Of a stretch of DNA of 64,000 nucleotides, positions 2,669 through 47,500 are shown one piece after another. The stretch covers positions 286,069 through 350,068 of the forward strand of contig KN832888.1 in assembly GCA_000827325.1 (NCBI GenBank). The letters are read 5' to 3'. Positions within the stretch are counted from its first letter, which is position 1. Each line of letters begins with the position of its first letter. The position numbers were made by a program, and so were the translations under genes. The stretch is from Oidiodendron maius Zn (Eukaryota > Ascomycota > Leotiomycetes > Myxotrichaceae). Below the pieces are notes generated by a model. It was not told the origin of the DNA. It saw nothing but the letters and a program-made list of their open reading frames with translations, and ran no database searches.

Positions 2669-5186
<2,518 letters not shown>

Positions 5187-8605: not shown

Positions 8606-11600
8606 TCAAGATTCGCTCTCCTTCTTGTCCTCGGACTTTTCTGCAGCTGCAGGGGTTGCCTTGGGCAATTCGGGAGAGTTGGATGCTGAAGGAGGTGAGG
8701 CCGGGTTTTCTGCTTCTCCAGAACCTAAACCTGCTAGAGGGCTGTGGAATCATCAGCATAAACTTCTAATCGTAATGAATGAGAAACATACCTAAATGCG
8801 TTCACGGAGGATGACACCTTCTCCTTCTGTTGAGGGGGTGTGCCAGTTCTTGATGAAGCTCCTGAATCCTCACCAGTTCGGCTCTGCGATCCCGATGGAC
8901 CAGCCTTGCGGCTGTTGCTACGGGACGAGAAAAGCGAGGTTGGCGCGAAAGACATTTGCGAACTCGACTGTCTATTGGCACCGCCCTTGTTAGTCAGACG
9001 ACGAAGGTCATCCATACCAACCGTGTTCTTGGTGTAGTCCACCGGGGGTTGGGCGCCATATTGGTTAGAGAAGTTCCTAGAATCACCACGTCCGATCTGC
9101 ATGCGTCCACCGCCGCCGCCGCCGCCGCCGCGTTGATTGCGACTACTCTCTGCGGCTTTCTGGGCAGCTGCTGCATCGGCCTGTGCTAGGTTAGTAAAAT
9201 TCCGTCTGAATTGTGCAAAGGTTGTGAAACATACCTCTGCTCTGATTTCCTCGAGCGTCTTCGGGCCCTTGTTGGCCTCCTTGGATTGCCAGTTCTTCTT
9301 TCGCAGATCAACAATATCCATAAGCATGAACCTCAATCTGCTGGGCAGCTCTGGGGTATCGATCATCGCCTGGATGCGTGTGAAGTACACGTCCATCATC
9401 GGCTTGCCCTTTTCGGTACTGTCCAAGTTTGCACCAATGGTCTTGAGAAGCTTGGTCAGCGACTCAATCTCGGCTTCATCAGGGACGCCAGTGTAATCGA
9501 CCAGCTTCTTAACACACTCATGCATGATACGCTCTGTTAGCATGCTGAGTTTGTAGAGCTCACCGATGAACTGAACAAGACCAAGACCGCGTCGCTTAGC
9601 AGCAGCGGCGATGTAATACTCGTCGGAGAGCATAGCAGCCTCTTCAGTCTTCTCCTCTCCCCTCTCATCCTCAGGCTTCTCTGGCAAGTCAATCTTCCAG
9701 CCACGCTCAAACTCCTCTTGGCATCTGTTGAGCAGGTACTTTCGGAAGAGGTTTCCACCCGAGACGACATTACCATTCTTATCGAGAATGCTCTCATCCT
9801 TAATGTCGGGGCTCATAGTCTCCAGCATACGCTTGCAAAACTTGGCATACATTGAGGCCCAGTGAGCTTCATCAGTGGCCTTCTCAAAGGTGAGCTGAAT
9901 CACTTGTCGGAGGGTGCGGCCATCCGCTTCGTCCTTCGACTGGGCAGCGATGGCAAGGATCTGGTCAGCAATCTTGTCGAATTTTTCGGGTGTCATCTTG
10001 TTCAGGGCTGCCTTGACCTTTCGCTGGACCATGTCAGGATCCATGTGGCCCCCAGCTGCGCCAGGAGCGGGACCAGCTGCGCCAGTCGCCGATTGGGCGG
10101 CACCAACACTGCGAGGTTTCCAGCCGTTGGCAGAGGTCTGAATGGGTTTAAGTTCCATACCAGCGGTGAGCGGCATTGTCTTTGCGGCTTGCGCTTCAGC
10201 TTTCGCGTTGCCGGTTTGGTATCCATCACGCTTGCTACCACCGCGTTGCGATCTGCTTTGTTGGCGAGGAGAGTGAGGCATGCCACCACCTATGGCTGAA
10301 CTAGACGGAGTTCGGGTCATTTGGCTGCCACCGGGGAAGGCTCCACCTGGACGGTTGAAAGAGGCCATAGGGTTGATGGCAGGTCGAGCCATGGAGCCAG
10401 TGGACATGGTAAAGCGTTCTGCCGAAGTGGTTCCAGGAGGAAGAGTCCTTCCACCAGCACCAACTGCGCCAAAAGAGCCCATAGCAAAGGCTCCCGGAGG
10501 GTTTCTGTTCGATCCTTGTCGTGGGCCCATGCTAGAAGATTGTCTCGTGGAGGCTGATCTGGCTGAACCGCCGTCGCCTTCGCCAATAAGATTCTTGACT
10601 TGTTCGGCAAACTCCAAGGATGGCTTCTCTGTGAACACTTTCTGGAACTGTAACAAGAACTCCTTATCGTACTTGAAACTTTGGCCCTTGGCTGCTACAG
10701 CAGAGTTTAGTGCAGGATTTGGTGAGCTGATGTTCGGTGGGTAGATGGATGCGTTGAGCACAGTGAGGAAGCGGGCCGACTTGAGGGACTGCAGCGCCGC
10801 GCTGGGTTGGGGTGGCTCTACAGGCTTTGTGTTCAGGGGCGCCAAGTTGAGTGCCGCAGGCTTTCCACGCTTCTCAGTAGATGATGCCTTCGGGGGTGGC
10901 GGAGGCATGGAATCATCCGAAGCCGGCGTGGATGCTCCACTGTCAGTACCGAGTGTAAGATTAGAGAGCTTGGACGCAATGGTAGTAGGGGTCGCGGGGG
11001 CATTCCTGTCGTCGGCGCCAGCCTTGCTCTCGGCGTCCTTGTTCTCGGCATCAGCCTTGTCGCCATCTTGAGCCTTTGCCTCTGCCTCAGCTCGCTTCCT
11101 CTCACGCTCATCTTCCAGGCGCTCCATCTCTCGCTCTTGCTCACGAAGTTTGCGATCGTTCTCCTCAGCGTCTGCCAGCCGCTTTTCCTCGTTGACCTTC
11201 TCAGCAGCAGCCTTGTCAGCAGCGCGCTTGGCCAAGATCTCGGCCTCCTTCTTCTCACGCTCAGCTTCGGCCTCTTCCATCTCTCGAATCGCGCGTTCCA
11301 GCTCCTCCTCCTCGTCTCGCTTGGCCTTCTCAGCAGCAGCAGCCGCCGCCGCCGCCGCTTCGGCCTCGGCCTTAGCTTCTTCCTTGGCTTTCTCTTCCTT
11401 GGCCTTAGCCTCAGCGTCCTCTTTTGCAGCATCATCAGCCTTAGTCGCCAACTCTGTAGCCTCAGCAGCCTTCTTAACCTTCTCCATGATTTCGGCCCGG
11501 ACCTGTTCCTGAGTCTTTAGGGCGGCGCTGTCGGAGCGAGCATGTTGAGGCGTAGAAGGTTTGGGAGGGGGGGTAGGGGTAGAGGCTATCACAGGCGGCG

Positions 11601-13605
11601 TTCTAGCGCGGTCCTTGGGAGCAGGCGATGCGGGAGCTTTTAGGTTCTCGACATTCAAAGCTTCTCCATCAGGCTTCTTGATAACGATGGCGGCGCTCTT
11701 CCGGGTCGGTCTCGTGAAAGTTGAAGGTTCGGGGCTAGCTTTTGGCTGGGGTGCAAGAGCGTGAGCCGGGGCCATTGAAGGAGTTCCGGGTTGGCCCATA
11801 CTGGACGCTGGCCGCGGGTCTGATACCTGGGACGAATTTCGGGACATTGGCTGCGCCTGAGGAGCGTACTGGCCGGGAATATAAGCGTTTGGCTGCTGGT
11901 AGCCGGGTTGGGGAGCCTGCGGGGCTCCGTTCATATACTGCATCTGGGGATACATGTATGGGGCGGCTTGCATGGGCATGCCCATGCGGTCAGTATATCC
12001 CTGGGGTGGGAATCCGTAATTCTGCTGCTGTCTCATTGTCAGAAACTGATCAAAGCCACCGCCTTCAGGAGATATGTCCATCTTTTTAATCTGCGCGACA
12101 CCCAACTGAGGAAAGCCAGCGACAGGTGGAGAGAAGGGGGGGTGCGTAACAGGAAATGGAGGGGGGAGAGGGGGGTAGTCAGCTTCATCAGATGTCGTAG
12201 GCTGTTGCTCCGAGCCTGGTGGCACTGATACATTCTGCTGCATTTGCGGCGAATGTCCATGCTCCGTGGGCTCTTGGGCCGATACTATCGTAGCCTCGCT
12301 CTGACCTAGACTCTGTTGCTCTGCAGGCAATGGCCCGTAAGCAGTATAGTAATGAGCAAACAACTCTCGCGGCTGCTCCGAAGAGCGCTGGCTTGTCGAG
12401 GACTGCTCAATTCTGCGCCAGTGCTTGTTCTTACGATTCTTGCTTGACTTTGGAAGATCTGAAAATTGTTGAGGGAAAGAGGGGTGGTATACTTGAGGTC
12501 CCTGCATGTGTGGGGGATAGTAATTATTAAACGGCTGAGGGTTCTGCATCGGTATCGTCTGATTCATGTTCGGGGTGCCAGGGAGCGAATTCGCCAAGGC
12601 CGGGCTGCGAGCAGCTTGATGCGGCGAGTTTGGGAATTGAGGGTTCATCGGCCGGCCCTGGCCCTGGAAAGGAGGGGCCATGCCACCACGTCCTTGATTG
12701 GGTTGGTTTCTGAATGGCTGCGCGGTGGGAGGATAGCCCATCTGCTGCTGGTACTGAGGGTTGAAGCCGCGTCCTCGTCCACCCTGAGTAGGGAATCCAC
12801 CACGGCCAGGTCCGCCTGGTCCTTGGGAGTGGCCCTGATTACCCATATCGCCTTGCCCGGGTTGAGACGAGTCCCGGCGCATGTGTCCGGATTGGTTGCC
12901 AGGTGCTAGCGGGGCCTGAGATGTAGAAACTTGTCGCATATGACGCTATCAAACACGGCATATTAGCATAATATCGACGCGTGCGTCAGGAGAATAACTT
13001 ACATCGCTATCGCCACCGAGACTGCCGAATGTAGGACCGTTACCCTGTGCCAGCCCAGAGGGCGGACGCCCACCACTCGCGGAAGGTTGTGGGATCGGAG
13101 AGGGGGACTGTGCGGGCGAAGGCACTCGTGGGTTGCTGGAGATGGGGATCGGTGCAGTCGCGGGCTGCGAGATCTGAGGCGTGCTGTGCGAGGCCGCAGG
13201 GGAGGCAGACCCAAATTGCAATCCCTTGCCGCCTACAGGGCCGCCATTAGAGACATAGCCGCTGGGGCCGTTGGCGCTGATAGTGACGGAGCTCTTGCGG
13301 CTGTGGTTGTTCGAGCCGCCATTGACGGATGCGCCACCGTGTGCGATGGCGGGCGCCGCCACCGCCGGCACAGCAGGAGAGATCGGAGGTCTGCCGTTTA
13401 CCGGCGAGACCGAAGATGACTTTCCATGCTGCACCGGCGCAGAACCTCCAACAGCCACGGCGGGAGAGGGGGTCGAGGAGCCCGTCGCGATAGGGGGCGA
13501 CGAGACTGCCTTCTTGGCGGTGGAGGCGTACGACGATGTCGAGGACGCGCTGGAGGAATTTGCGGGCTGGCTAGGGATCTGAGACTGCTGGGAGACTGAA
13601 GTCAT
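8606..13605 (-). CDS. Translation initiation factor eIF4G
   Basis: Scaffold of the cytosolic cap-binding complex: it bridges eIF4E, eIF4A, poly(A)-binding protein and eIF3/40S. Four exons (13605-13003, 12945-9235, 9180-8792, 8741-8606) give 1612 residues, in the range of large filamentous-fungal eIF4Gs and longer than the yeast proteins. Domains in order: a Ser/Ala/Pro/Gln/Gly-rich disordered N-terminus with RGG/GRG boxes; a long Glu/Lys/Ala charged coiled-coil-like block (about 680-840); an eIF4E-binding motif YDKEFLL (Tyr near 960, fitting YxxxxL-hydrophobic); a MIF4G HEAT domain (about 1170-1400, VQRKVKAALNKMTPEKFDKI onward); a poly-Gly/RGG stretch; and an acidic/Pro/Ser tail. Intron 9181-9234 is 54 nt, in frame and stop-free, with a canonical ACTAAC branch site; reading through it would add 18 spurious residues. 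The start at 13605 is the first ATG of the open frame. Confidence 0.95.
9109..9132. repeat. CCG trinucleotide run encoding poly-Gly in eIF4G
   Basis: About seven to eight consecutive CCG units on the plus strand. On the coding strand they give the poly-glycine run just before MQIGRGD in the RGG-rich region of eIF4G. Such runs are prone to length change between strains. Confidence 0.85.
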
Positions 13606-15621: not shown

Positions 15622-17419
15622 TCATAGCACTATGCAGCTAGAGCCAGATCCCCTAGATATGCTTTGGTTAGCTCTTGTCAAATATCCAGTCCCACTTCTA
15701 ATCGTAGAAGGAAAAGAGTAAATTTGCATACCATCGCCGCGCCTCTAGCTGCTCTGCCCACTCCACGCACAGCTTCAGCCTTTCTCGTACGCTTGTCGTC
15801 AGGAGCATACGATACTTCTCAGCGTTCGAGGCTGGAACAATGCTGGCGAACCACCATGGGAACAGCGCCGCATCGTTGGGACAGTCTCCGTAGGCGTTGA
15901 CCACTCGGTTGTGTAGCCACGTTGTGCTTTGCTCCTTCATATTATTGATGAAGCTCGTGCCCTTCTCTAGGAGTTCTTGCGTGGATAATGAGTCAAGATC
16001 TCGAGATGGGGATGAATCCGGTTCTTCGCCTGATGAGACCTCGTGTGGAGAGAAGTGGGTATGGTCTTGAGAGGAGGCTTCTTTGGAGCTGGAAGTCTCC
16101 GCCGCTTCGATAGCTTCTTCTTCTGTGATGCTGATATCACTAACTCGCTCTATCTGGCCCACGGTGTAGCCATCAAGCATGGAATGCCTGAGGACCCTGA
16201 ATCGGGAGATCCCAACGGTTTCGAGAAGGCTTCGACCATCGGGTAAGAGTTGCATGTTCACGACACTCAGTAAGGTTCCATATTCGTAGAATGGCACCCG
16301 TCCTAGCTCTCCTTGTGCCTCGCGTGTCGGATTATACAGCAGCATGCCGAACTTTCGTGTGTTGTCTTCAATAACTCGTCGAATCATGAGGCGATACCTT
16401 GGTTCGAAGATATGTAGGAAGGTGGCCATGTGAGGGAATGAGATAGTGCAGACAAAAAGTGGCGTGTCCAACTCCATATCCCCGTCCATGTTGTCGAACT
16501 TCTCCACTTCCATCCTAGATACAAGATCCTCTTCGAAAAGGCCAGACACCCAGCTGGTGAGAAGTGCATTTGAAGGAGCTTGTCGAGCATTCGGTCCGGG
16601 GGGAAGCTCCATGGGCTGCCGGCATATCGGACAGAGATTCGAATGATCGAGCACTCGATGCATGCATTTTCGGCAGAGAGTGTGGCCACAATTTGAAGTC
16701 AGAGGGTCCAAGAAAACACTGTAGCAGACTTGGCAGTCTAACTCTGGTCTTGTAGACCCTTTCAAGCGTCCCAATAACGTGGAGTCTGCTTGCTCAGTTT
16801 CGTAAGGTGAGTCCAACGCAGGGAATATCGCTTCGGAGTCGTATGCGAGCTGCCCCTCCTCCACCATGATATATGTAGACAGTAGTCGTCCACCGGGTAG
16901 TTCTCTGACTTCTTCCGCAGTATTATGTAAAGTGGATTTGACCTCACTTGCCCCAGTTTGAAACAGCTCCTCAGATGCCTTGATAGAGTTTCTGTAAATA
17001 GATACCTCTGTCCAGATATGATGTATAATCTTAGTGAGCACCACGTCCACATTATAGTCCCCTTCAGCATGTTCCCTCCTGCACCTTTCAAATGGGCACA
17101 GGAAACCACGTAACCTGTTAGCCGTCGCCGGATAGGATATATTCGTCCGCAGATGCAGTTCGGGGATGCATTTCTTACAGAGCGTTCTACCACAGGGCAG
17201 GGTGACTGGCTCTCGGAAGGGATAAGAGCATTTGGGGCACTGGGCTAATCTGACGATCTGGCGTGCATCTCTCGAGGCATTGAGAGGTGTGACCGGGTTC
17301 GTATGTTCAGATGCCGACGAAGTTGATGCTGTAGGGGCGAGTGTGGGTGATGAGGTTACGATATCAGGCGTGGCGGACATGAATGGCGATGTGAGGGTGG
17401 GGTTTATATCTCTCTGCAT
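15622..17419 (-). CDS. RING finger - LON substrate-binding domain protein, CrgA type, with C-terminal CaaX box
   Basis: Predicted E3 ubiquitin ligase. Two exons (17419-15732 and 15652-15622) give 572 residues. Visible: an N-terminal RING-like Cys cluster (CPKCSYPFREPVTLPCGRTL), a second canonical RING (CQVCYSVFLDPLTSNCGHTL then CRKCMH and CPICRQPM), then a LON-type N domain from about LFVCTISFPHMATFLHIFEP, with an acidic/Ser insert. Known relative: CrgA of Mucor, a RING-LON repressor of light-induced carotenogenesis that carries an isoprenylation motif. Reading straight through the donor after RRW ends the frame in SFYD. Splicing a 79-nt intron (GTATGC donor, AGCTAAC branch) instead gives GSGSSCIVL-stop, so CIVL is a CaaX box whose terminal Leu predicts geranylgeranylation. 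Start at 17419 is the first ATG; Met-13 is an alternative. Confidence 0.88.
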
Positions 17420-18183
17420 TGTGGAAACAAGGCCGATAGAGTCACCTTATGGTAGTCGGTTTTATAGAAGAGTAAAGAAATATGTACATATATTAAGAAA
17501 ATATCGACATCGCCCTTGACACAGGATGGTGTGTAAGTGGAGTTACAAAGTAACCAGGCGTCGGGTAACTGGGGGTCATGTGCGGGGCAGAGTGTCAAGC
17601 ATTTCCTCGCCGCTCTCAGATACGCGAGCCCCCTGCTATATGATATTATCCAAGACACCAATACCGTTTCCTAGTGCTAGTCACAGCAATGTAATTATAT
17701 ACCCCAGACAATTATGTGAAGTTTTGTTTGAATTCTCCTAAGCAAGATCGCACTCTGCAAAACGGGATGTAATAACTCTTCTAGCCCAATTCAAGACAGC
17801 CTCGGTGATGAGCCGTTTCTCACATACGCTTGCAACTTCTGCACACGCTCTGCCACGATCCATAGCATGAAGACTCGGCAGGGAGCGAAGACTTCCTCCC
17901 CCATCGATGCAAGCAACAATCTAAAGCAACTACGCCAAGCACACGCGTATAAAACTGTATGACCGCTCTGAGAAGGCTTTGAGTAGCACCATGCTACAAC
18001 TGAAATCGAGAAGACTGTAAGGGCTAGGCGCGCTTGCCCTGCATTCTCTTGGCATTTGCTTCGCATCCAGCCTTACTTCCTGCTTTCGCATGGCCATTGC
18101 AGTTAGCTGTATCGCCGGATTAGGCTCTTGGCTTTGCTTCTTTAGCCTTTGCTCTGGATTTTTGGGCTTTGGCTTCTCCTTGG
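17420..18183. other. Intergenic, RING-LON promoter side
   Basis: These 764 bases lie between two leftward genes. The half nearest 18180 continues to read as Lys/Gln/Ala-rich codons on the minus strand after the F-box-like stop at 18184, so the upstream gene may have a longer, spliced C-terminus. Otherwise I see nothing definable. Confidence 0.4.
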
Positions 18184-21291: not shown

Positions 21292-24112
21292 TCAAGTCCC
21301 CTCGTCTACTACAGTCTCAGCTGCAGCTAGCGAAGCTGGCACCTCTTTATTCGGTGTAACCATTTGTCCTGATGCATCATCATCCCCACTTGCCATTTCA
21401 ACATCTGTATTCCCGGCCACTAATGGCTCCTTTATGCTATCAGTCGAGTTTGACTCTGAAAGCTCACTTCTAAATATAAGACTTTCAAGATCCTTGTATG
21501 CAGTTTCAAGGTCATCATTGACAATGATGGTGTCATAGAACCCATCGAGCTTAGCTTGCTCAACCTCCTTATTCGCTTCGTCCAGCCTCTCGTGAATCTT
21601 CTCATCTGAATCAGATCCTCTCTGCTGTAATCGTAGCTCTAGCTGATTCATATTAGATGGAGCAATGAAGACAAAGCGAGCTGCGTAATCTTGGTCTTTA
21701 AGTTGCTGTATGCTCTATGAATCGTGAGCAGTCATCAAAACAAGGACGGTGGTAATCAAACGTACGTGCATGTCCATTTTCATAATGGGCACTTTACCCT
21801 CAGCAATGATACCTTCCAAAATCTTTTTGCTCGTCCCATAATCATTACCATTATAGTTGCTGTGCTCCAGAAAACTGTCCCCATCAAGAAGAACATTGAA
21901 TTCTTCTTTGGTCACGAAGCAGAATTGCTCTCCAGGAGTCTCTCCTTCTTGAGGGGGGCGAGTCGTATGGGAAACTTTCTTCGCAAAGACTTTAGAGTGC
22001 TTGTCTACTAGCATGTTGATTAACGTGCCTTTTCCAGCACCACTTGGACCTGATATGACGATTGGACGACGATCTGTCGGAAAGATAGTCTCATCTGACT
22101 CTTGGGGTTCATCCTCACGATTGGTAATTAGCTCTTCAGGCCTGATATCGTCTTGAAAGATGTGGTCAATTTTTTCAGAGCGCTCGATCTTGTCAAAAGC
22201 TACCAGTTTGCTCGTGCTAGCGATGCGTAAGGCTCTCCAGCTCTTGCTTGCTTTGGATTCGATGGCGATATTTCTCGACTCTTCATCCTGGGCCATATCA
22301 ATATCCATGTCGTCCAATTCGATCTTGCTTTTGAAACTCTTAATTGAAGGGAGCTGATATCGTGAAGGGTCCATTAATCTCTCCAAGCCGCCACGGTCGT
22401 CACGACCAGAGAGAAACTTGAGATCCAAAGATCCAAGGGGCGTTGCACGGATCCGCTTACTGGCAGTGGCTTTACTGGCAGAAGCTTTTGCAGCGACGTA
22501 GTCTTCAGGCGTGACAGCAGGACGTGCAATAGAAGGGCAGTTCTCAATCTTCCAACGAGCCCAATTTTTGTCTCTAGAAAGAACTGTTTCGACCATACGG
22601 TAGAAGAAAGCACCTTCAAACCCTTGTTTCAAATACTCCGCGATTGACCGCTTCATATCCAGCGCCCAGTTTGCCTATTGGCTCATTAGAAACGAGGACA
22701 CAACAAGCTCGCAGGGTGAATAGCAAAGAGAATACAAAACTATGAGAGACTGAGAGATGAGAAGATCCTTACATCATTGTCGGCCAGAAGTTGATCTGCA
22801 TACAAAACTGACTTGTTTAGATTGTCTGGCAGGTTCGCTTTGGCTAATTTCTCTTTAGCTCTCGCGCTCAAGGAGAGGAGGAAATCCAAGACAATCAAGA
22901 CTTGAACTAGAATGTTTCTCCGGAAAGAAAGGTCGCTGATCTAGTCTCACAGATTAGGGAAGGATTCTTCTATGCCGTTAAGTAAGGCATACCTCAAGTT
23001 CAAATAAGTCCCGGCTAGTAAGGTACTTCGGGTTGAACGCATTCGCTAAATCATCTTCCGCCTGACTTCTCTTCCGTTTAATGCCTCTTTTGCCATCTTC
23101 GGCAGCCTTTACAGGGCGGCCACTCATGTCATTTTGGACGGACTTAAACATGGCCATCGTAGATTCCAATCCAGCCTTAAACCCTGCAAATTTTGCCGGC
23201 TCGAACAGCTTCTTGGGTTGATTGAAAGTTTCTTGTAGCGACCAAAATATTGGGTACAATTCGTTTACACTCAAGGGCGTATCCGGTTTAGAGAAGGTCA
23301 CCCCCTTAGTCCCAGTCTGTGACTCTTCGTTCGGGTTTTCTGTACTGCCATTCGCAACGGGTTTCGACTTCGAGGGATCTTCTGAATCTACATCCATCTG
23401 CTCAAGCCCCAGCTCTTTGGGAGGCAGCACATCGAATGACGTGACATTCTCAGTGTGGTATTCTCCTCGCAGGTTTACAGAACTTCTGTCCCCAAGAGGG
23501 AAGCTCTGGAACATGAAGATGAACACTCGCCCGCAGAAAGCAGTATCTTCAGCTCGGGAAAGTCGTCGTAGGAGCTCATTACAACTTCGTAGAATAACCA
23601 AATTCTTTTGACCGAAATGTTTGCCTGTAATCTTCTCCCGCCGCGATTCTAAATAATCAAAAATTCTTCGACAGCCGGCGATTGTCTGGCTGTCCAACAG
23701 CTCTTCGACCAACCAAAACAAGAGTGCCGTATCGCATTGTTCGTCATCGGAGAGGATAGATAATATGTCGAGGAGATTCCACATCTGCACGAAGGATGGT
23801 TTATCAATCGTCGTAGTAGCCTATGAATCGTCAGAGGAAATTCCCCAGAATGCGCCGATGGAGACTCACGAGTAGCTCGTTGAACTTGTTCCGAATAGCC
23901 GTGTCAATAGCTGCATGCTTCTGCTTTCTCTGATCTGGGTTCTCCGCGGACGAAAAAAAGGTTGCCTCTACCGTCTCGAGAATATCTTCAAAGTCCACTT
24001 TACTTAAGGATGGCTCCACTGTGTCCGTCTGCTTCACCTCTTCAGCTCTCTGAAGCAGCCCATTTAAAATCTCCCCAAACACATCGACGGCTTCCACCCC
24101 ATGGCCAGCCAT
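21292..24112 (-). CDS. THO complex subunit 1 (Hpr1/THOC1) fused to a guanylate kinase domain
   Basis: Five exons (24112-23870, 23820-22993, 22940-22773, 22674-21766, 21714-21292) give 856 residues. Residues 1 to about 600 match the THOC1 family, the THO subunit that couples elongation to nuclear mRNA packaging and export (MWNLLDILSILSDDEQ..., FEGAFFYRMVETVLSRDKNW). From about 615 to 795 comes a guanylate kinase fold (GMP + ATP to GDP + ADP): P-loop GPSGAGKG (622-629), GMP-site SHTTRPPQEGE and DYGTS, lid RLQQRGSDSDEKIHERL with both Arg present, and VNDDLETAYKDL. The usual DxDxQG segment reads KMDMHS, so the first Asp and the Gly are changed. A 60-residue acidic tail follows. The two domains meet inside one exon, with no intron, stop or nearby Met between them. 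Whether the kinase is active is unknown. Confidence 0.9.
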
Positions 24113-24574: not shown

Positions 24575-27500
24575 ATGGGACCGAGAACGAGAGGGAAGCA
24601 AGAGTCTCAGCGAGAAGCAGATGAAGGGCAGTCAGCTACTGCCCATTTCCAGGAGGAAACGCCGTTTGCGCAATTTGCAAAAGAGAACTGGTTGAAGCTA
24701 TCCAAGAAAGGTTCCAAGATCAAGGTCAAGTCAGACCTTTTAAAAGCTGAAGTATGGGACGTTCTGGAGAAGGAGAACTTTGCATTCAAGTCACTCTTAG
24801 AGCTGGAGAACTTGCAGATCCTGGAAAAGTGAGTGCCATATATCCTTTGGTTCTCATTCGTACTTTGCTAATTGCCTAGATACCTGTGGCCAGGATACTC
24901 CGAAGACTCTTCCAATTTTCACGTCCTACTGATCGTTTTGATCGCGAATGTTAAAATACGGGAACACCTTTCAACATGGGGTACGAGCTCAGATAACCAA
25001 GTAATATGATACGCGCTGACTTTCAGTAGATATATTTACCGACAATCCGACAGAATTCTCTTCTCTCTTTCGCCGAATCCTCTCTATGACGCTGGATACT
25101 ACGCTATCTCTGACTGTCCGGACCCATCTCCTTTCATTTTTAATTAGTGCCTTTCAATCACTGGATACCGGAATAGTTAGAAGGGAGTGCGCCCCGTTAG
25201 TATCCATTTCGATATGGCACAACATTTCCAGCGAAAAGAAGCGAGATCAGAAGTTAGACCAGACTGTTCAATTGAGGAAGGCCTGGAGAGCAGCGACTAA
25301 GCGTTATGATGCGGCTGATGACTCAACTAAACCAAGACTCCGCTTTGAAAGGTCATGGCTTTTTACACTCGTACTAGGGTTTTTCAACCAGCTTTATGCC
25401 GAGGCGAATAAACAAGGTGCGCAGCCAGTAACAATTTTTAAGGTGCTGACTGACGATGAATAGAGAACATAAGATATTGTGAACGTTTCGTTGAGTTCCT
25501 GACGGACCTTCAAAGCCAACTACCAACAAGAAGATATGTCAACACACTTTTACAAGATCTACATACCTTGTCCGTCATTCGCATGTCTCCCGCTTTCAAT
25601 GACGAAGATAATGGGCTTTTACGAGACATTTATGCGCTGCTTAAGCATTACACCTACTTTTCAATCGACGATCATACTGGGATCCAACACAGCGCTAATG
25701 AGGCATATGACCAGCACTGTGCAACGCTGGCTAAACTGCAAAGAGTGTCGCTCAAGCACTTTAAAGAGAAGCTGACAATTTTGGCATTATCAAACTACGC
25801 ATCCATTGACAAACGATCTGAGCTTGAAGGTCACTTGGAAACGCTCTCAGACACCGAAGTCATTGAACTCTGCAACTTGCTTGATCTGCGCACATCATAC
25901 CCGGCTTCAACAAAGATTTCATGTGATCGTCAATTCCTAATCGAGGTATTACTGTCCACGCATGAAAAGCGAAAGACTTTCCAGGAAGCCGCTCGCGATC
26001 TTAGTATTCTCCCAACAGAGACTAGTCTTTTTGAGTCGGCGCTGTTAAGAAATGATAATTATGACGGGTCACAGCCGCTGGCTATTCCAAAATTAAATTT
26101 ACAATATCTTACAGTTGGTGACTTTTTGTGGAGGTCTTTCATTCTTCACCGTTGCGAGTCATTTTATGAGATTCGGAAGGATGTGGAAGACGCTATAAAG
26201 CGTCTACGACCAGTAGCTGGCCGCACAGGCCAGACGACATTTGATGGAATGTCCAAGATGGCGCTGCCGATCTCAAGTTTTTCGTAAGTTTATTATCTAT
26301 ATCCTTGATAAAGACGCTCCTAATGGTAGACAAGTATTTTGGAAACACTTCCGCCCCTCGTTGGAGGTGATAAGCCCGCTGCTGTCCGAGCTGAAATAGT
26401 CCTTGATACTAGTCGGCTGGCAGAGAATTTTAGGCGCGAATGGGATGCCCTCAGACCAGACGACGTGATATTTTTAATAGCTGTCCAAGGTAGTGATGAC
26501 ACGAGAATGATTACGAATGGCGGCACGGTTCCTCCTGATGCGCAAAAGCTAGGGTTGAGACACCTACGAGCAGCTGAGATTATCCAAGTTCTCGACGACA
26601 AGGGCCGTTCACTGAGGGAGCAAGCTGATTACACCAATAGCTATGGCCGCCCCAGGGGACGCAGACTGCAAGTGAAGCTTGATGCAGCCTTGTTCCGTGA
26701 TGATATGAACGAGGTTACCAAAGGGAAGCCTGATATTTACGAGAGTATGAATGTCGTTATCCGTAGAAGACCACGGGAGAACAACTTTAGACCGGTTCTG
26801 GAATCTATTCAGAGTTTGACACTCTCTGATGTTCCATTAGCAGCCTGGCTCCACGAAGTGTTCCTCGGCTACGGAGACCCGGCTGGAGCAACATATACTC
26901 ACCTTCCGAATAGAATTGAGCGAGTTGACTATCGGGATACTTTCTTGAGCTGGCAGCACCTGATTGAGAGCTTGCCAGGGAAGACAGTGGAACCGAGTGA
27001 TGACGCAAGTTCTAGCTTTGGACCTCCTTATGTATTGGAGTCGGTGGCTACGGCCGTCGAACCTTCTCCGGCCAAGACTTCAAAGAAGAGACGTCGTGAT
27101 GCCGAGCCCACACCCCAAGTCCAGCCTCAATCGATCTTGGTATCTACATACAAACCACCGAATGCAGGTCCATATCCAATGGATGCACCTAAAATCAATC
27201 AAGTACGGTTTACTCCTACCCAGATCGAGGCAATAATCTCTGGAACTCAACCTGGCCTTACTGTCATCGTCGGGCCTCCTGGGACCGGCAAGACCGATGT
27301 TGCAACGCAAATAATCAACAATATCTACCACGACTTTCCCAACCAACGAACCCTTCTCATCGCGCATAGTAATCAAGCTCTTAATCAGCTCTTCCAAAAG
27401 ATAGTGGCTTTAGACATTGATCACCGTCATCTCCTGCGTTTAGGCCATGGGGAGGAAGAGCTTGATACAGACGCTAGCTTTAGCAAACATGGGAGAGTGG

Positions 27501-44559: not shown

Positions 44560-47500
44560 ATGGAGTTTGACGACAGCAGGAAGGATGTTGTAGACCCCGA
44601 GGTTCGAGCCTATGTATCAAGTCTTGTCTCAGCAGTAAGTCACTCGAATTTCGCACTGTGCTCTACTAAAGTGCGCTGCTAGCTGGGCGGAAATGGTGCG
44701 GACGAAGATGGACGATATGTGCTTGGAGACGACGCTTTAGCATGCCTCCGAGATCTGAAGAAATGGCTGAAACTATACGATGAGAAGGCCAATCGACTCG
44801 ATGTGGCGCGCTGTCTGGCGGAATCTAATCTGGTGGGAGGCGATCTACTTCAGATTCTTGCTGCTTGGCCAGAGAATGCCACGGCAGACCGGCTCAAGTC
44901 GAAGATCGCTTTATCATGCCTTGAACTTCTCGTACCTCTGACATGGCCCCTCGAGAAAAATACGGAGCAAATGACTGTCAACCATCACAGGCATATGCCA
45001 TACCTCCAGATTGCCCAGCTTGGATACAAACGAGCAGTTATAAATTACGATGGGGCACGGATTCTGCACACGGCAGTCAGATGTGCTTTGCCGTCTATGG
45101 CAGAGGCAATCGGGGATCGAAGCACTCGGGATGAAGGCATCATCAAACTTGTGCTCTACTTCTTGCGGAATATTGTGATGATTGCCCCCCCTCCGAGTGT
45201 ACAATACGAAGGAGATGAAGCCGAGATATCGAGATCTGCAACTATTGATGCATTTGATTACCAGGACATATTCCACCTTCTCCTCACTGTCTCCTCCTCC
45301 ATGGGCGAAGACTTCAACACTCAAGACATTGTGGTTATGGAGATATTATTCTATCTCATAAAGGGGGTTGATGTCGAAACCCTATTTCAGGATGATGAGA
45401 AGGCTGGCAATGTCAAGGTCGACGAGATGGTAAGGTTGAGGAAGAAAGAAGCAGCAATGCTAAGAAGCTATCAGAGCAATGCACCTACAAGGCATAATCG
45501 ATTCGGTGCCATGGTCTGGCTTCAAAGAGACGATGCTAAGATGACGACTATATCCGGACAGGCGGCATTAACTGATACTGCCAGGGGTCTGGCTAAAATG
45601 GATAGCACCAAAAAATTTAAGCCGCCTCGTCGTGCAATTAAGGGGGATACTGGCCCTATGGATTTCGAGATACCGGTCACTCTGAGCACACAGGCAAATA
45701 AACACCTAAGTGCTTTTGTCGAGGACTTTTTAGACGCAGGTTTTAATCCGTTGTTTAACCACATTCGCAAGGCCATTGACCGTGAGGCAGAACGGGTTCT
45801 AGAGTACCACAAGCGGCAATTTTTCTACCTGGTATCGTGGTTTCTCAGCGCGGAACGGGCGAGAAGAAAGAGCAAGAAATTGTTGGTTGAGCGAAAGTCC
45901 TCTACAGCTGATGATATAGACAATTTTGCTCTCGTTGCCAGTGTCTTGAATCAAGAAATGTTCGTAACCCTGAACAGGGCTATGGACTCAACATTCGAGA
46001 ACAAATTGTGGCCTGATCTTAGTGCTGCCATGAGGTGTTTCACTCAAATCCTTCTCACGGTTCAGGAAATGTCCGAGTCACCGCTAGAGGAAGACCAAGA
46101 TATCGCTGAAAACATTCTCAATCGAATATTCTACGAGGAGGAAACGCATGATAGAGTTGCCAGCATCACGCGAACGTACAAAGATCAAGGATTTGGCTAT
46201 CTGGATTCCTGTACTGAGCTTACTCACAACTACTTGCGAATACTAGAGCAATACTCAAAGCAGAATGTGGACCTGCAAGTCAGATCACGACGAAGGGTAC
46301 GGCGGAAGAAGAGATCTGCGGGGGAGGCTGGTGGCGATGACAGTAATAACGACGTCGATGATTCAGAGGGAGAAGATGAGGCACGGGCTGAAAAAACCAC
46401 TCGTGAAAGAAAGTTCGATTTCAAACGCTTCGCCTCCAGGTTCTTATCGCAAGGATGCATCGACACATTTGTTGCGTTTACGAATTATTACAACGATCTC
46501 AAACCTTCTCAACTCAAACGATCACACAGATTCTTTTATCGCATTGCATTCAAACAGGAGATGAGTGTGATGCTATTTAGAGTCGACATAGTCGCCCTTT
46601 TGTACAAAATGATCAAGGGTCCAGAGGGTCTAGACCCTCAAGCCAGCCATTTCAAGGAATGGGATGACTTGGTAAAGCAGCTGATTAAGAAATGTACAAG
46701 GAAAATCCAGGAGCGCCCAGAGCTTGTTGTTGAACTGCTCTTTTCAAAAACGAATGGCACGGCGCATTACTTAGAGTACGGATATGAGAAACAGACAGTA
46801 ACAACAAAGCCAAGAGCTGCAGCAGAGCTGGAGGTAAAGCCGGGCATGGAATGGGAAGAACAGGTTGGTGTTGTTGTAGGAGCGCTTTTGGACCGGAATG
46901 AAGGAGAACACCTTCAATGGCTCAAGTCACAACTTTTGTCTGCGGAGAGCGAGCGTCGCAGCTGGGAAGGGGCAAGCCAGGCAATTGTATCAGTCGAGAA
47001 AGATCCTTTTGAGGAATCTACTGACATAACCGCTTCTAATTCCGAACCACCGAAGCCACCTTCAATATGTATGTGGTTCTATTTCTTTACACGTTTTACA
47101 TGCTAACTTCTTAAAGTGATTAAGGCGAGTGATGAGCTTCGCAGAGTGGCACTGTTCAAAAACGGCTATCTTCGACTTCTGATGATGCTTACCGGATTCC
47201 AGCGCATCGGCCTTGAGGACGACCCTGACGCTTCTTGGGTTATGCCGTCAACAATGCCTGCCGACAAGATTCTGGATGGTCTCAACCTAATTAAGAAGTT
47301 TGAATTTAGCCCACCCGTTTTTGACGATGGGAAGGAAGCCGGAGATTTCATCAGAAGGAAGTCCGCTGGAATCGCCAAAAGTAAAAGAGCTGCCTTTGAT
47401 GATGAAGATGACGGGATCGATCATGATGATGAAGAGGAACTACTGTTTCCAGCTGGTGGGCCTACTGCCCGCAAGAAGTCGGCGGAAGCTTTGGAGGCAC

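Follow-up and report, generated by a model that had tools for sequence, protein, structure and literature searches.

A THOC1-guanylate kinase fusion gene in Oidiodendron maius with substitutions at the GMP site of its kinase domain

The window analyzed here, a 64,000-nucleotide stretch of contig KN832888.1 of Oidiodendron maius Zn, carries on its minus strand a gene (24112-21292) whose five exons are predicted by spliced translation to encode a protein of 844 aa (94.9 kDa), with an efThoc1 domain in its N-terminal part and a guanylate kinase (GK) domain toward its C-terminus. Each of its four introns is of the GT-AG type and in phase 0. The contig carrying it is 955 kb long. The coding features of the fusion, its two Pfam domains, and other genes assigned in the window by Pfam are as follows.

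21292..24112, minus strand: complete fusion coding region, 844 codons plus the stop codon (21294-21292), with introns inside the span
23870..24112, minus strand: exon 1, residues 1-81
22993..23784, minus strand: exon 2, residues 82-345, where the Pfam efThoc1 match begins
22773..22940, minus strand: exon 3, residues 346-401
21766..22674, minus strand: exon 4, residues 402-704, stop-free, with the end of efThoc1, a short linker, and the N-terminal part of the GK
21292..21714, minus strand: exon 5, residues 705-844, with the C-terminal part of the GK and a 59-residue tail
22096..23784, minus strand: efThoc1 domain (PF11957), residues 82-594, introns inside the span; 498.7 bits over profile positions 1-486 of 490
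21472..22071, minus strand: Guanylate_kin domain (PF00625), residues 603-785, one internal intron; 164.7 bits over profile positions 2-180 of 182
3702-4922, minus strand: DEAD-box helicase
8737-12945, minus strand: eIF4G
15701-17446, minus strand: protein with RING and LON-substrate-binding domains
44683-47103, plus strand: TIMELESS

The first-pass annotation had proposed that the exon at 22674-21766 runs without a stop from THOC1 sequence into a guanylate kinase, and the spliced translation and Pfam matches bear this out, exon 4 being open across the junction. From the WRAL motif of the THOC1 part to the P-loop of the kinase there are 63 codons, for which the chance of meeting no stop is 5% by base composition; over the 158 codons that remain of exon 4 from WRAL onward the figure is about 5e-4, although most of these codons belong to the GK domain and would be coding anyway. 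The accompanying observation that the kinase start lacks a Met also holds. Counted from the start of exon 4 as zero, the P-loop motif starts at codon 208, and the nearest Met codons lie at 126 and 220; a product initiated at the former, 82 codons upstream, would retain 82 THOC1 residues, and one initiated at the latter, 12 codons downstream of the motif start, would be without the P-loop. A separate kinase gene was judged unlikely, there being no suitable start codon. Three donor-like sites occur in exon 4; the one in the linker (GTGAGG) was judged unimportant by eye. That an assembly or gene-model error has joined two adjacent genes is barely conceivable, given an exon that stays open over the junction, the lack of an interdomain Met that would give a P-loop-bearing kinase, and the same architecture independently described in Magnaporthe oryzae, where the gene was deleted and complemented (PMC5732230). 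One fused reading frame for efThoc1 and GK, in one five-exon gene, is confirmed as far as the predicted coding sequence goes. In the tail that follows the GK domain, the residue counts include S 8, E 7, A 7, D 6, and V 6.

Among structures in the PDB, the THOC1 part matches human THOC1 (7znk, 4e-41; 7apk, 5e-41) through the WRAL motif, and its efThoc1 domain is 32% identical to a stretch of the human protein. A PF11957 profile search of the genome (45.9 Mb in 58 contigs), with the best candidates scored (two of two), retrieved the fusion gene alone, in three exon-wise matches; similar searches, again scoring the best candidates, placed Tho2 and THOC7 at one locus each. Because the efThoc1 domain is full, no other THOC1 was found in these searches, and Tho2 and THOC7 are present, the predicted fusion protein is most likely the THOC1/Hpr1 of this fungus. 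In these same respects (full domain, one copy found, both partner subunits) it resembles THOC1 and yeast Hpr1, from which it differs by carrying a C-terminal GK domain. The C-terminal end of human THOC1 is a death domain. No relatives of the THOC1 part were found in viral contigs (5 and 214 pattern stretches) or in bacterial and archaeal contigs (40 pattern stretches), sets in which such negatives are uninformative on the spread of the fusion among fungi; for that spread, the literature on M. oryzae is the source. A GK search of the viral contigs returned four loci.

The architecture itself is already known. MoGuk2 (MGG_06394) of M. oryzae, a protein of 810 aa combining efThoc1 and GuKc, was described by Cai et al. 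in 2017 (PMC5732230), so the first-pass suggestion of a new kind of link between purine nucleotides and mRNP assembly does not stand as a discovery. Both proteins, 810 and 844 aa long, have an N-terminal efThoc1 (PF11957) and a C-terminal Guanylate_kin domain (PF00625), and both genomes hold a separate Guk1; the MoGuk2 gene has three introns, whereas that in the window has four. According to PMC5732230, loss of efThoc1 caused more severe defects in conidial morphology and virulence than loss of GuKc or of the P-loop, the last being mildest, while in vegetative growth the three deletion strains all equaled the null. The article notes an involvement of efThoc1 in mRNA export, and neither "THO complex" nor "Hpr1" appears in its main text. 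A 2024 review (PMC10879430) describes this step as characterized in M. oryzae only and repeats the enzyme reading, and another review (PMC10055536) mentions MoGuk2 once. A term search of PMC3032688 returned no occurrence of THOC1, kinase, or fusion.

On its Pfam score, the GK fold of the C-terminal domain is not in doubt. A separate canonical guanylate kinase, for which the first-pass annotation had advised a search, does exist in the genome: a PF00625 search, with the best candidates scored, found the fusion gene and one other, in two exon pieces on contig C2 (L002 1415-2138, G000:C2), which our own gene model makes an ordinary 198-aa guk1 containing two introns. This guk1 scores 206.2 bits against Pfam Guanylate_kin, compared with 168.9 bits for the fused domain excised. 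The two share a homologous domain, the GKG end of the P-loop, and one phase-0 intron, but guk1 stands alone, has an extra intron near its start that is absent from the fused domain, and keeps R42, Y51, D99, and G104 (yeast numbering from Met1, as in the whole of the active-site comparison below). The shared intron lies at

21715..21765, minus strand: GK-domain intron, 51 nt, phase 0, matching canonical guk1 in alignment column and phase

and follows KMDMH in the fused domain, as the second intron of guk1 follows DIEME, both at alignment column 112. Because the intron occupies an identical column and phase in guk1, the simplest reading is that the GK domain most likely derives from a duplicated, intron-bearing fungal guk1 that then changed fast. 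A bacterial or retrocopied origin was judged unlikely in view of the same intron. Identity of the fused domain is highest to its own guk1 (46.2%), followed by the enzymes of yeast (40.7%), E. coli (38.8%), and mouse (37.8%) and by PDB entry 8pts (37.1%). In a six-sequence tree it groups with its own guk1, with a bootstrap of only 62%, and its branch length of 0.96, compared with 0.35 for guk1, marks it in this tree as fast-evolving. Both the fused domain and guk1 have Gly where yeast has Ser16, but this is weak evidence of kinship because Gly also stands there in 20 of 80 prokaryotic GKs (the best 80 of at least 575 relatives). The 51-nt intron is in frame and contains a single stop codon, the TAG at its acceptor site, so that its retention would truncate the protein mid-kinase. 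In the canonical guk1 the corresponding segment is DIEMEG; its second acidic residue is an E, in contrast to the D101 of the yeast, mouse, and E. coli enzymes, and 14 of the same 80 prokaryotic sequences likewise have E there. In the PDB, the fused GK (21472-22071, minus strand) scored best against FAP42 (7n6g), a ciliary structural protein, which it matched at several stretches.

The first-pass annotation had listed a P-loop GPSGAGKG, the motifs TTR and YGT, and the lid arginines in the kinase, with KMDMHS in place of DxDxQG. All are found in the translation and alignment, three arginines aligning with yeast R132, R136, and R147. The positions most relevant to nucleotide binding, as assigned by alignment, are

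22027..22050, minus strand: P-loop GPSGAGKG, retained, residues 610-617
21949..21951, minus strand: Q643, aligned with yeast Arg42, which contacts the GMP phosphate
21922..21924, minus strand: F652, aligned with yeast Tyr51, which contacts the GMP phosphate
21778..21780, minus strand: K700, aligned with yeast Asp99, which contacts the GMP ribose and hydrogen-bonds with Ser35 in apo-enzyme simulations

According to PMC4325336, four residues of the yeast enzyme (Tyr51, Tyr79, Arg39, and Arg42) hold the phosphate of GMP, and two (Lys15 and Asp99) hold its sugar. R39, Y79, and K15 are kept in the fused domain and the other three are replaced, which leaves the set of phosphate and ribose contacts incomplete. 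Overall, G9, K15, S35, R39, E45, E70, Y79, D101, R132, R136, R147, and N169 are retained, and the substitutions are R42 to Q643, Y51 to F652, D99 to K700, Q103 to H704, and G104 to S705; D50 has also become Q, at a position that is variable in prokaryotes too. R42, Y51, and D99 are present in the fungus's own guk1, in the enzymes of yeast, mouse, and E. coli, and in PDB entry 8pts. As a prokaryotic control, the best 80 of at least 575 GK relatives were used, that is, those most similar to the fused domain, which makes the comparison conservative; many come from enterobacteria, pseudomonads, and clostridia, and the sequences are not independent. Within these 80, position 42 is R in 79, Y51 and G104 are invariant, and an acidic residue occupies position 99 in 79 (45 D, 34 E); K15, S35, R39, E70, Y79, R132, R136, R147, and N169 are found in all 80. 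As aligned, the changes affect the hinge and the side that contacts the phosphate and ribose of GMP, with the P-loop, lid, and guanine contacts retained. Because GMP phosphate and ribose contacts are lost, the fused domain probably has weak GMP kinase activity or none. The earlier suggestion that activity might be altered or abolished is thus strengthened by the changes at R42 and Y51, and what weighs against it is that the MoGuk2 data have been read as activity.

Under that reading, the protein would be an active bifunctional one, making GDP, perhaps near transcription sites, and contributing to the GTP pool, a role put forward for MoGuk2; we regard this as possible but rather doubtful for the window protein. 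The P-loop lysine and lid arginines of an active GK are present, the equivalents of Ser35, Arg39, Glu70, Tyr79, and Asp101 are intact, and the domain passes the cut-off of the NCBIfam equivalog TIGR03263 (179.5 bits against 160.45). Expression and deletion data for MoGuk2 speak for it as well: in a heterozygous yeast guk1 strain, GDP was 6.72 with MoGuk2, 3.54 with MoGuk1, and 2.92 with the vector, and in the M. oryzae deletion mutant GDP fell by 60.1% and GTP by 63.7% while GMP rose by 34.0%, the mutant being partly rescued by addition of GDP or ATP. The authors read this as GK activity and MoGuk2 as an enzyme of GTP synthesis (PMC5732230). The yeast experiment, however, used a heterozygote and was not the rescue of a null, and, should the protein be the THO subunit, the mutant could have lost its nucleotides indirectly. 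Furthermore, R42, Y51, and D99, replaced in the window protein, are near-invariant in the prokaryotic set (best 80 of at least 575) and are shared by all the other enzymes aligned (the fungus's guk1, yeast, mouse, E. coli, and 8pts). MoGuk2 is reported as active from GDP measurements, whereas the window protein is without some GMP-site residues, and the two were compared by architecture.

The fused domain also invites comparison with MAGUK proteins, as the first-pass annotation had proposed in raising a repurposed binding module, since in both cases a GK fold is embedded in a larger, nonmetabolic protein. Animal GK enzymes have been converted into protein-binding modules by one hinge change (PMC4718807 and PMC4325336), and K700 would affect the residue whose hydrogen bond with hinge Ser35 is seen in apo-enzyme simulations (PMC4325336). 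A MAGUK-like phosphoprotein-binding domain in the old GMP pocket is nevertheless improbable here. The hinge Ser35 equivalent is retained as Ser636 and is not Pro. Between MAGUKs and the enzyme, the contacts Ser35, Glu70, and Asp101 differ and the other five are invariant (PMC4325336), and in the Dlg GK domain the phosphate contacts are conserved while the LID, with many ATP-binding residues, has diverged most (PMC3335814). The window GK instead keeps Ser35, Glu70, Asp101, the lid arginines, and the P-loop and loses R42, Y51, and D99, hence two of the four phosphate contacts, so that its residue pattern, as aligned, is the reverse of that of MAGUK GK domains and the earlier proposal finds no support at the residue level. 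GK protein-interaction domains are, in addition, reported to be absent from fungi (PMC4718807). With other residues changed, a MAGUK-type conversion was judged unlikely, and the fused domain could serve as a docking module by a non-MAGUK route. Neither SH3 nor PDZ appears among the 12 families matched by the whole fusion protein in Pfam at E up to 1. The usual MAGUK architecture places one or the other beside the GK.

For the role of the fusion, the position of THOC1 within THO provides a framework. In human THO, the bow of THOC2 is sandwiched by the THOC1 dock domain. The C-terminus of THOC1 can bind the export factor, weak density for which lies near the THOC2 stern (PMC7744094). Ubiquitylated Hpr1 helps to recruit Mex67 (PMC7682988). 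The fusion protein would act as THOC1/Hpr1, the THO subunit that holds THOC2, with THO function in mRNP assembly and export as its main job. Its C-terminal module, putatively derived from a duplicated fungal guk1, would combine an ATP-type P-loop and lid with lost GMP phosphate and ribose contacts and, sitting at the THOC1 C-terminus, would lie near the presumed site of export-factor loading. Since the ATP-type elements are kept but the GMP site is damaged, we infer that nucleotide binding or docking is a more likely task for it than GMP phosphorylation.

We lean toward the view that this gene encodes a THOC1 with a guk1-derived C-terminal nucleotide-binding or docking module and little GMP kinase activity, and think it rather probable on the sequence features described. 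It draws on the fused frame, the single THOC1 found, the separate guk1, the shared intron, and the substitutions. The milder effect of P-loop deletion in M. oryzae (PMC5732230) was counted in its favor; the MoGuk2 GDP data from the same study, the TIGR03263 score, and the 62% bootstrap were counted against it. A broader and more tentative proposal, which we consider possible though short of probable, is an independently evolved fungal pseudokinase that lost its GMP phosphate and ribose contacts and kept its guanine contacts and ATP site, by a route opposite to that of MAGUKs, and that would act from the end of THOC1, its C-terminus, as a nucleotide-gated switch for export-factor loading; MoGuk2 would then be mainly a fungal Hpr1.

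The one functional paper located reads the fusion as a purine enzyme (PMC5732230). A search by title and beginning of abstract, with most subscription literature outside its range, found no paper that treats an efThoc1-GuKc protein as THOC1. Within the literature searched, no publication was found that identifies such a fusion as the THOC1 of its fungus or that describes the lost GMP contacts of this member. If such fusions are the sole THOC1 of their fungi, as the genome search indicates here, the developmental and nucleotide phenotypes of MoGuk2 may need to be reread in terms of THO. A damaged GMP site would represent a route from GK to pseudokinase in a kingdom reported to be without GK protein-interaction domains (PMC4718807).

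Adjacent to the fusion and divergent from it, a homologue of Aquarius, the intron-binding protein, was identified by Pfam on the plus strand from 24575 to at least 28630. With its ATG taken at 24575, the start codons of the two genes are about 460 bp apart, and because of this short divergent spacing the Aquarius homologue and the THOC1 fusion, two genes of mRNP maturation, may share a promoter region.
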